Shown in pieces: positions 17,191 through 28,840 of a stretch of 29,116 nt of DNA (position 1 is the first letter of the stretch; every line of letters begins with the position of its first letter). A program made the translations under genes and the position numbers. The notes under the pieces were generated by a model. That model was given only the letters and a program-made list of their open reading frames with translations. It ran no database searches and was not told the DNA's origin. Origin of the DNA: a virus; the IMG/VR virus record IMGVR_UViG_3300017956_000085, positions 1 to 29,116 of that record. The stretch is one strand, 5' to 3'.

Positions 17191-17385
17191 TTAGTCTCCT
17201 GAGTATACGTAATAGAGGAATCCTTCCGCTAACAAATACCCTGCTAGATTGCTGGCATCAGTATCATCCCAGCATTGCTCAGTATCTAATAGAAACTGAA
17301 ACAAGTCCAAACCATCATCAACTGTAAGGAGTCCTTGTTTCCATTTAGTCCAGAACAGTTGGTATTTCTGAGGACCTGTAATCAT
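17191..17385 (-). CDS. Hypothetical protein, 64 aa
   Basis: Starts at ATG 17385 (MITGPQKYQLFWTKWKQGLL) with a fair ribosome site, AAAGGA, 6 bases before it. Rich in leucine, tyrosine and tryptophan, probably a small helical globular protein, ending FLYYVYSGD. No family recognised. It is the first gene downstream of a strong sigma70-type minus-strand promoter, so it is likely transcribed early together with the two genes after it. Confidence 0.65.
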   Translation of the reverse strand: MITGPQKYQLFWTKWKQGLLTVDDGLDLFQFLLDTEQCWDDTDASNLAGYLLAEGFLYYVYSGD

Positions 17386-17412
17386 TCGTTTCCTTTGAAC
17401 CCTTACAGAGTC

Positions 17413-17441
17413 ATTTTAGCAAGAAAGTGTCAGTCTGTCAA
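17413..17441 (-). promoter_or_regulatory. Sigma70-type promoter, TTGACA-N17-TAAAAT
   Basis: The minus strand has TTGACA (17436-17441), a 17-base spacer and TAAAAT (17413-17418). It points into the operon beginning at 17385. This is a near-consensus host-type promoter and is half of a divergent pair with the plus-strand promoter at 17635-17663. Confidence 0.8.
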
Positions 17442-17524
17442 GTCGTTCGAGTCTATCAGAATTGCTAATCTTTCTGGGGTTGACAACTCGATAGGTCGTA
17501 CGCTAAGACTTCTGAACTATCGCT

Positions 17525-17533
17525 ATTATACCA
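17525..17533 (-). promoter_or_regulatory. Second minus-strand promoter candidate (extended -10)
   Basis: The minus strand reads TGGTATAAT, a perfect -10 with TGn extension, about 90 bases upstream of the near-consensus minus-strand promoter. No clear -35. It could be a tandem promoter for the same operon. Confidence 0.45.
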
Positions 17534-17584
17534 GGAAAAGAACACAAACCCATGTTTTTTTCCATATTTCCTAATTATTCCGCG

Positions 17585-17628
17585 TTTTCCACAATTTACA
17601 CAATACCTGTGGAAAAACCTGTGGAAAA
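17585..17628. promoter_or_regulatory. Cluster of three DnaA-box-like sequences
   Basis: TTTTCCACA at 17585-17593 on the plus strand, and its exact reverse complement TGTGGAAAA at 17608-17616 and 17620-17628. All three fit the DnaA-box pattern TTWTNCACA, and TTTTCCACA is, from memory, the form common in cyanobacterial origins. The last two copies are a perfect 12-bp tandem repeat of ACCTGTGGAAAA (17605-17628). The block lies in AT-rich DNA directly upstream of the plus-strand promoter. It may be a DnaA-controlled operator or part of a replication origin. Confidence 0.55.
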
Positions 17629-17634
17629 CTATAC

Positions 17635-17663
17635 TTGACAGAACAGAGAGTTTATGATACAAT
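17635..17663 (+). promoter_or_regulatory. Sigma70-type promoter, TTGACA-N17-TACAAT
   Basis: TTGACA (17635-17640), 17 bases, TACAAT (17658-17663); the longer string TATGATACAAT gives a second overlapping -10. Transcription would begin near 17670, about 24 bases before the ATG of the plus-strand oxygenase. It sits 6 bases after the last DnaA-box-like sequence, so a protein bound there could repress or activate it. Confidence 0.8.
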
Positions 17664-17693
17664 AGATAGAAAAGTATTGCGGTGATTGAGTTA

Positions 17694-18374
17694 ATGACCA
17701 TTGACGTGAACAGAGGAAACATTGTAGAACTATTTCCGCGTCCTGTTGTATTCTATCGTCTACCTGATGAACAATTTGAAATCCTTCAATCTATTGCCAG
17801 TAAGGTAAAAGAAAACAGAGGAGAATACACTCATGTACATAACCCACAAAATGGAAAGTTAAGTCACTTTCTTGATAACTCTGATGACAATATCTTTGAC
17901 CAATTTGATATAGGTTGGTACAAACAGTGGTTAGAAGATTGTGCTAAAGATTTCGTTGAGAATGTTAAAGGTTTAACCTTGCATGGTAGTGATATGCAAT
18001 GCGTACACTGTTGGATGAATCAAGCAGATAGAATGGCACACCAATATGTACATAACCATACATGTTCGATTGTTAGCGGCACTCACTACATTCACTTCGA
18101 TAAGAGTAAGAATCAACCGTTGAGTTTTTATAACCCTTGGGTGAATCAGGGACCATTACAACCATCGCTAGATTTGCAGTGGAAAGAACATACAAAGTAC
18201 AATTATCCTTCTATTCAAGTTGTGCCAGATGAGGGCGATTTAATACTCTGGGACAGCAACATTTACCACGGCTATGATATTGACGTTGTGGGCAATCGTA
18301 CAACATTTAGCATGAACTTTATGCCCTATCGTATGATGTACGGCAACTACGGTTTCTCACTCGTTAGAGACTAA
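17694..18374 (+). CDS. Fe(II)/2-oxoglutarate oxygenase, PF13759-like, the only plus-strand gene
   Basis: 226 residues from ATG 17694 (a GTG at 17682 would add four). The C-terminal half shows the pattern of the phage 2OG-FeII_Oxy_5 type: YVHNHTCSIVSGTHYIHF (H120, H122), LSFYNP (143-148), GDLILWDSNIYHGYD (H192) and NRTTFSMNFM (R202). Such enzymes hydroxylate a substrate with iron, oxygen and 2-oxoglutarate; cyanophages often carry several, with substrates unknown. It has its own near-consensus promoter next to DnaA-like boxes. Its end overlaps the end of the next gene, another oxygenase on the opposite strand, by 11 bases. An expression pattern apart from its neighbours is likely. Family is fairly sure, substrate unknown. 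Confidence 0.85.
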   Translation: MTIDVNRGNIVELFPRPVVFYRLPDEQFEILQSIASKVKENRGEYTHVHNPQNGKLSHFLDNSDDNIFDQFDIGWYKQWLEDCAKDFVENVKGLTLHGSDMQCVHCWMNQADRMAHQYVHNHTCSIVSGTHYIHFDKSKNQPLSFYNPWVNQGPLQPSLDLQWKEHTKYNYPSIQVVPDEGDLILWDSNIYHGYDIDVVGNRTTFSMNFMPYRMMYGNYGFSLVRD

Positions 18375-18975
18375 TCTGGGCGCTAGTTGTTTCTATTCCC
18401 TGTGAATGTTCGTTGATGTCTCCCGTTGGAAGTGTATTAAACGATATACTCCAACGGTTGTTATCTTCAAACTGTCGTTGTGTACCATGCACCAAACCTG
18501 AAGGGAATAACAGTAATCTTCCTCCTACAAATGGTGCTTCCCATCTATAGTTTGGTTCACGTCTATAGGGTTCGATTCGTGCTACTTTATGCGTGTAGTA
18601 TGGATTTTCAAATATAGTGGGCGCACCATCTTTACTCGCATAGAATATACCTGAAACACACGACATTGGATGGTCATGTGAATGATGTGCCTGCTGACTT
18701 CCTCCCCAATTTGCATTAGCCCAGCATGTAGTTATCTCTAGTTTGTCACATGCAAACGTCCAATGTTGTCGTGCTTCTTCTAAACAATCATTGAACCAGT
18801 TGACTACATCTTTCAAGTACAATTCCCGATGCATTTGTGTATGCGTATGGGACAATCCTGATGGACCCATGTAACGAACGTGTCGTGATAAAAAATTATC
18901 CAACCCTACCCAATCGAGTAAGGAAGGATACTCAAACTCTAACACTTCTACAGGGAATAACTTATGCGTTTTCAT
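18364..18975 (-). CDS. Fe(II)/2-oxoglutarate oxygenase, PF13759-like
   Basis: 203 residues. Metal-site candidates are in HHSHDHPMSCVSGIFYAS (H97-H102; H100 and H102 most likely), FPSGLVHGTQR (H163), and R174 in NNRWSISFN for 2-oxoglutarate. The segment after the first motif, PTIFENP, matches the family pattern. It is clearly related to the oxygenase at 27151-27756 (both have F.SGL.HGT.R followed by a hydrophobic strand) and more distantly to the convergent plus-strand one. The start overlaps the previous gene by 14 bases. The facing gene ends 11 bases inside this one, so full-length transcripts of the two would be antisense to each other at their ends. Confidence 0.85.
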   Translation of the reverse strand: MKTHKLFPVEVLEFEYPSLLDWVGLDNFLSRHVRYMGPSGLSHTHTQMHRELYLKDVVNWFNDCLEEARQHWTFACDKLEITTCWANANWGGSQQAHHSHDHPMSCVSGIFYASKDGAPTIFENPYYTHKVARIEPYRREPNYRWEAPFVGGRLLLFPSGLVHGTQRQFEDNNRWSISFNTLPTGDINEHSQGIETTSAQISL

Positions 18976-27150: not shown

Positions 27151-27756
27151 TTATTCAACTGGCACACCCTTTTCTTTAGGTGAAGCATGCACATTGAACG
27201 CCAAAGTTAATCTTTCTGTGTCTACTTGTCGTGTTCCATGTAACAAACCAGAAGAGAATACCTTGATAAATCCTTGACATCCCTTCATTCTTGCATCCAT
27301 TTCATTAAAGTCGTTGCGTTTTACGCACCCTGGTTGTACTGGTTGCAGGAATCTATGCGGGTTGATGATATAGAAATCGAATTGGTCTGACGCAATAATA
27401 TCAACGGTGCCAGAGATTACACTGTTTTGATGTGTATGAACCTCTTGACACCACTGCGGTTCGTAATAGTTTAGCCAAGACGATTGGATGTGGTAATCGA
27501 TATTATCTGTGTCATATTCCATACGATTGATGTATGCTGACACACAGTCCAAGATAGGTTCAACCAGGGGTTGCATCTCTGGTTGTGAGAGTATATCTGC
27601 TGCCGTATTGACAGTAGACAAACACCGCGTTTCATACGAATGTTTGCCTACTTCAAAGCACAACTCTTTTGCCCAGTCTTGCATATCTTTTGACACAAGT
27701 TCTTCAACTTGGTCATAAACAATTAGACTGGGAAAGAGGTGTAATTCAGATGCCAT
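27151..27756 (-). CDS. Fe(II)/2-oxoglutarate oxygenase, PF13759-like
   Basis: 201 residues. Candidate metal ligands are in EVHTHQNSVISGTVDIIA (H107, H109) and FSSGLLHGTRQVD (H173), with R182 in ERLTLAFNVHA for 2-oxoglutarate. FYIINP (about 128-133) corresponds to the F.NP segment of the family. It is closest in the window to the gene at 18364, sharing the F.SGL.HGT.R block. Substrate unknown. It starts by a TAATG overlap with the 44-aa gene upstream and ends before the promoter module at 27096-27142. Confidence 0.82.
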   Translation of the reverse strand: MASELHLFPSLIVYDQVEELVSKDMQDWAKELCFEVGKHSYETRCLSTVNTAADILSQPEMQPLVEPILDCVSAYINRMEYDTDNIDYHIQSSWLNYYEPQWCQEVHTHQNSVISGTVDIIASDQFDFYIINPHRFLQPVQPGCVKRNDFNEMDARMKGCQGFIKVFSSGLLHGTRQVDTERLTLAFNVHASPKEKGVPVE

Positions 27757-28132: not shown

Positions 28133-28840
28133 TCAAGAACCCCATAGATTCTTGAATGGACAACGTTTCTCATCATTTGCTAATGACCAGGAAACGCCAG
28201 GGAGATAGTCTTTAAGCATGGTGTTTTGCCTTGCATGACGTATCACCTCAGATTTGGGTTCGGCACATTCTAGGCGGTAATTCTCGCCTGCTCCGCTGAA
28301 CCTCACACACCATAATGCATCCCCCCTCTTGATGTCAACCGTTTCACCCATTTTAGATACAAACGGTGTGAGGATTGGACGCACCCACTTACCTAGTGGG
28401 AAATGTGCAGGGATAATCTCTCTATCCAGACGGATTTGTTCCATCCAGATGTCTCGATGTTCAGTCCATAGTAATACCATGGGGCCAAACTGTTGGACGA
28501 GAGTATCACCAACCACATCAGAATCGCCCATGAACTCTTTGAAGATGTTCACATCAGATTCTATAATCAACCTATCTTCATGTAAGCGATAGGTTGCATC
28601 AAACTGAGCATAGAAAACAAATGTATTCTTTGCCCAAGACTTCCAAGCAGGACAGCGATAATGACTATAACTATCCTGCTGAATGTAATCCAGATACGTT
28701 GTTGGTTTAATATACACCCCCTCAGCAAATAGAGGGTGAGTTATACCATCATCGGTCGAAGGATTCATGGGATGAAAGTACACTGTCTTTGTAGACCGAT
28801 TTGTACTCTCGGGGTTTTTCCACAAGTGCTTCAGGTTCAT
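28133..28840 (-). CDS. Hypothetical protein, 235 aa
   Basis: Not recognised. Begins MNLKHLWKNPESTNRSTKTV, has an aromatic-rich middle (HYRCPAWKSWAKNTFVFYAQ, then QFDATYRLHEDRLIIESDVN) and ends RCPFKNLWGS. No catalytic motif or membrane segment is clear; two CP pairs and several tryptophans suggest a compact fold. The chosen ATG overlaps the upstream gene by 92 bases; an ATG at 28768 (MNPSTDDGITHPLF) would cut this to 20 bases and cannot be excluded. Neither start has a good ribosome site. Confidence 0.7.
   Translation of the reverse strand: MNLKHLWKNPESTNRSTKTVYFHPMNPSTDDGITHPLFAEGVYIKPTTYLDYIQQDSYSHYRCPAWKSWAKNTFVFYAQFDATYRLHEDRLIIESDVNIFKEFMGDSDVVGDTLVQQFGPMVLLWTEHRDIWMEQIRLDREIIPAHFPLGKWVRPILTPFVSKMGETVDIKRGDALWCVRFSGAGENYRLECAEPKSEVIRHARQNTMLKDYLPGVSWSLANDEKRCPFKNLWGS

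Follow-up and report, generated by a model that had tools for sequence, protein, structure and literature searches.

The stretch of DNA analysed here (the window) is, judging from its gene content, a 29-kb contig of a T4-like cyanophage. It encodes baseplate wedge proteins of the gp6 and gp25 types together with another baseplate wedge protein, a Kyanoviridae Gp96 protein, a DNA helicase and several 2OG oxygenases. Three of its genes are PF13759 2OG-Fe(II) oxygenases, namely the one listed in Table 1 and those at 18364-18975 and 27151-27756. A preliminary description of the window had drawn attention to three exact copies of TTTTCCACA, one direct and two inverted, the last two lying within a perfect 12-bp tandem repeat, and to a near-consensus promoter beginning 6 bases past them. 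All of these features were located (Table 1). The accompanying statement that the oxygenase to their right is the only plus-strand gene agrees with the list of open reading frames, the small frames having been checked in part.

Table 1. Features at and around the box cluster, in window coordinates.
Feature	Position	Strand	Remarks
Small early gene, phrog_14990, function not assigned	17191-17385	-	Downstream of the leftward promoter
Leftward sigma70-type promoter, TTGACA-N17-TAAAAT	17413-17441	-	
Conserved core, TTGACA-N18-TAAGACT	17480-17512	+	From alignment with relatives
AT-rich stretch, candidate unwinding region	17553-17580		Adjoins box 1
DnaA box 1, TTTTCCACA	17585-17593	+	Exact; aligns with boxes found in relatives
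Perfect 12-bp tandem repeat, ACCTGTGGAAAA x2	17605-17628		Contains boxes 2 and 3
DnaA box 2, TTTTCCACA	17608-17616	-	Exact; 23 bp from box 1
DnaA box 3, TTTTCCACA	17620-17628	-	Exact; 12 bp from box 2
Rightward promoter, TTGACA-N17-TACAAT	17635-17663	+	Precedes the flipped oxygenase gene of the window phage
2OG-Fe(II) oxygenase, PF13759, phrog_81	17682-18374	+	Neighbour, not part of the element

The three-box cluster at 17585-17628 is beyond chance. At least two boxes within 44 bp were found in none of 400 first-order Markov sequences of the length of the window, and two boxes in none of 20,000 simulated sequences with the local AT-rich composition. The spacing between boxes 1 and 2 is the commonest one among relatives. 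A fourth copy of TTTTCCACA in the window, at 28816, is isolated.

A blastn search with the region matched the non-coding stretch to the left of the oxygenase, and not the oxygenase itself, in S-ShM2, S-MbCM6, S-MS29 and ACG-2014d. Judged by these alignments, the boxes make up one end of a conserved non-coding element of about 200 bp (about 17410-17630), the parts of which come in a fixed order: the leftward promoter, a core of the form TTGAC..TAGG..GTGCTAAGACTACA, the AT-rich stretch, and the boxes. The consensus of the core among relatives is TTGAC-N17/18-GTGCTAAGACTACA, and it may be either a protein site or a rightward promoter of the extended -10 type. Each genome has the full core at a single place, with shorter parts of it recurring a few times by chance, and the idea that it represents a common promoter class was rejected for this reason. 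In Syn10 (L460, about 1554-1598) the core region has an extra palindromic copy, GTGCTTAGCAC, directly before GTGCTAAGACTACA.

Conservation of the boxes was assessed by a search independent of them, in which a pattern for the core only, TAGGNNNCGTGCTAAGACTACA, was scanned over 2.9 million viral contigs. This recovered 32 non-identical viral elements with sufficient sequence. Every one of them has two or more exact copies of TTTTCCACA within 200 bp to the right of the core, and none has an exact box within 200 bp to the left; for 300 permuted 9-mers used as a control, the average was 0.17 of the 32 and the best 10. The boxes are inverted or direct, and there are ten arrangements of number, direction and spacing among the 32 elements, the spacings being 11-13, 23-24 and 31-32, with 67-73 to an outer box. 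Given that the layout varies while the boxes stay, it is the protein site itself that is conserved. Because the 32 elements are related, they do not count as that many independent events; independent retention is better gauged from the changes of arrangement.

The element of S-MbCM6 matches 137 phage records, at one place in each, all of them from Synechococcus phages or cyanophages. Ten of these were inspected closely, mostly ones in which the match stops short of the first box or close to it; all ten carry one exact box or more, and nine of them carry at least two, S-SSM4 having one. Overall, at least one exact box was found in 17 of the 17 phages examined, these being the window and 16 named isolates, and the isolates checked span about 13 genera. 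The synteny is also constant, in that the element adjoins the baseplate-wedge/PAAR block; in S-ShM2, S-MbCM6, S-MS29 and ACG-2014d it lies between this block and a block of small genes. The 64-aa gene that flanks it in the window gave no BLASTP match to its counterparts in S-ShM2 and ACG-2014d. In six complete genomes (Syn9, S-PM2, S-ShM2, S-MbCM6 and two more), an nhmmer profile gave a single strong match per genome, with E values from 2e-49 to 2e-14; the element lies at about 52.6 kb in Syn9 and about 19.3 kb in S-PM2. Such a genome, of 155-196 kb, holds just 4-8 boxes, and tight clusters of them occur only in the element or within about 0.7 kb of it. Conservation in relatives, on which the preliminary description had staked its interpretation, is therefore clear, the element and its boxes being kept across Synechococcus phages. 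Profile and box searches did not find the element in the Prochlorococcus phages P-HM2 and P-SSM2.

In some phages a second pair of TTTTCCACA lies leftward of the element, at a distance of about 0.2-0.9 kb (4867-4891 in L127, which is S-ShM2; 46602-46631 in G005; near 4239-4247 in L130). Among the matches listed, close pairs of TTTTCCACA are also seen in many unrelated viral contigs that do not have the core, and these are possibly further phages with DnaA-box elements.

Other identities for the element were tried and rejected. A structured non-coding RNA is not indicated: RNAalifold gives hardly any consensus structure for either strand, and there is no credible Rfam match. The boxes are direct in some phages, so that a hairpin, or a terminator, is not the conserved thing. 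The S-PM2 record places two tRNAs, tRNA-Asn and tRNA-Leu, over or next to the element (NC_006820, 19177-19333; L338, 4178-4334); ARAGORN finds no tRNA on it, and the annotations are probably mistaken. Small ORFs are annotated over the element as gp86/gp87 in Syn9 and SShM2_079/080 in S-ShM2, and several such small annotated genes are probably spurious.

The DnaA box published for cyanobacteria is TTTTCCACA, with support from EMSA and footprinting (PMC4674748). It was the commonest box-like 9-mer around dnaN at 30 loci of the host family, and was present within 500 bp upstream of dnaN at 20 of them, in a sample that is rich in low-GC genomes and covers marine Synechococcus thinly. A search of eight phage genomes for a DnaA domain found none, which makes the DnaA of the host the likely ligand. 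On these grounds, host DnaA very probably binds the boxes of the element. The likeness extends to the cyanobacterial oriC, which lies next to dnaN and where exact copies of TTTTCCACA likewise form a small cluster in non-coding DNA. In vitro, DnaA domain IV binds the Cyanothece boxes, two of which are separated by 2 nt (PMC4674748), compared with 3 nt between boxes 2 and 3 of the phage. Unlike the cyanobacterial oriC, the phage element has no dnaN neighbour, has a conserved core of its own, and shows no turn in GC skew.

On balance, we consider that the element recruits host DnaA and most probably serves as the primary replication origin of the phage, a reading to which we give slightly better than even weight. 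It is suggested by the single copy, the fixed place, the combination of core, AT-rich stretch and boxes, and the independence from any neighbouring gene. In such a scheme, host DnaA would bind the two to four exact boxes, which lie near one another, in many cases inverted or at a spacing of 12 bp. We infer that it would then open the adjoining AT-rich stretch, perhaps aided by transcription from the promoter-like core, and that a phage replisome of the gp59/gp41/gp61/gp43 type would load there to carry out the first round, with recombination-dependent replication taking over afterwards. Counting against an origin, the AT-rich stretch is unexceptional, in that 0.5% to 65% of 300-bp windows hold one equally unstable, and the element was not found in P-HM2 and P-SSM2. 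Inspection by eye revealed no clear DnaA-trio array around the element.

A phage origin was among the possibilities raised in the preliminary description, which had named the lack of a skew signal near 17600 as a point against its interpretation. There is indeed no such signal: cumulative GC skew does not turn at the element, and third-position skew has no step there in the expected direction. However, about 90% or more of the long-ORF coding is on one strand, which would hide a replication skew and makes this test a weak one, and not every origin shows a turn. The possibility of an origin gains strong indirect support from the conservation, the single copy, the fixed place and the identity with the host box; the skew counts against it.

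T4 replication starts at RNA-primed origins without DnaA, which is a further point against an origin fired by DnaA in these phages. The T4 origins lack DnaA boxes and rely on MotA middle promoters, and to our knowledge T4 does not borrow the replication starter protein of its host. The element resembles the R-loop origins of T4 (oriA, oriF and others) in that it belongs to a T4-like phage and has a possible promoter followed by an AT-rich stretch, and differs from them in carrying DnaA boxes. P1 oriR, pSC101 and RK2 oriV, at which DnaA works together with iterons and a Rep protein, are also foreign replicons with host DnaA boxes, but no iterons were identified at the phage element and no Rep candidate is known. 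A 2010 review reported no motA homologues in cyanomyoviruses (PMC2984593). According to the same review, one theta origin had been predicted for Syn9, a member of the same phage family (Weigele 2007, as cited in PMC2984593); the predicted place may be the element or may lie elsewhere.

The alternatives give the boxes other roles. Host DnaA could act as a transcription factor on the leftward early promoter, which is conserved and would drive an operon of small genes towards the baseplate genes. The promoter reads TTGACA-N17-TATAAT in Syn9, S-MbCM6, S-MS29, S-H35, Syn10 and S-SSM4, and of the 12 phages scanned, 11 have this sequence or a near match on the left side of the core. DnaA is an established regulator of transcription, and early expression would then follow the replication state of the host. 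We regard both this control and its consequence for early expression as unlikely: DnaA-regulated promoters usually have their boxes nearby, whereas here the distance from promoter to boxes is variable, at about 115-240 bp, with the conserved core in between, and S-PM2, the one exception in the scan, has the element without such a promoter.

It is less likely again that the boxes capture DnaA, with replicating phage copies drawing it away from the host oriC and so stopping host initiation, as the preliminary description had also envisaged. The boxes are exact and of the high-affinity type, many phage copies are made, and titrating sites such as E. coli datA are well established. Set against this, the element has just two to four boxes, at one place, and tied to the core and the AT-rich stretch; a sponge requires neither a fixed place nor a core.

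Slightly more doubtful still is an R-loop origin of the T4 kind. In this case the promoter-like core, acting rightward, would prime replication across the AT-rich stretch, and DnaA would be a helper or a brake. The core, here in the form TTGAC-N17/18-TGCTAAGAC, does lie ahead of the AT-rich stretch and the boxes, always in that order, and it has no rightward gene to serve in relatives; but its -10 is poor (TAAGAC), and in some phages TTGTGT replaces TTGACA. This reading overlaps with that of an origin fired by DnaA.

Control of the oxygenase by DnaA, which the preliminary description had placed among its explanations, is very improbable as the reason for the boxes: they do end 6 bp before a good oxygenase promoter in the window phage, but this promoter was not seen in the aligned relatives, which keep the boxes with no rightward gene beside them, the 2OG gene that lies close to the element in S-SSM4 and ACG-2014d being leftward. 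The oxygenase is therefore a neighbour, and any effect of DnaA on it could be a secondary one in the window phage.

Our search of the literature on DnaA in cyanophages found no earlier account of the element, which should be useful as a family marker. If the preferred reading, that of a replication origin bound by host DnaA, is right, these viruses may be a T4-like group with a host-dependent replication trigger, namely a conserved single origin fired by host DnaA, although we propose this tentatively and at somewhat less than even confidence. It would link the phage to the replication clock of its host, and would couple phage replication to the cell cycle of the host as well as, in cyanobacteria, to light. 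The element also offers a precise place at which to test the start of replication in T4-like cyanophages, which are among the most abundant viruses in the ocean.
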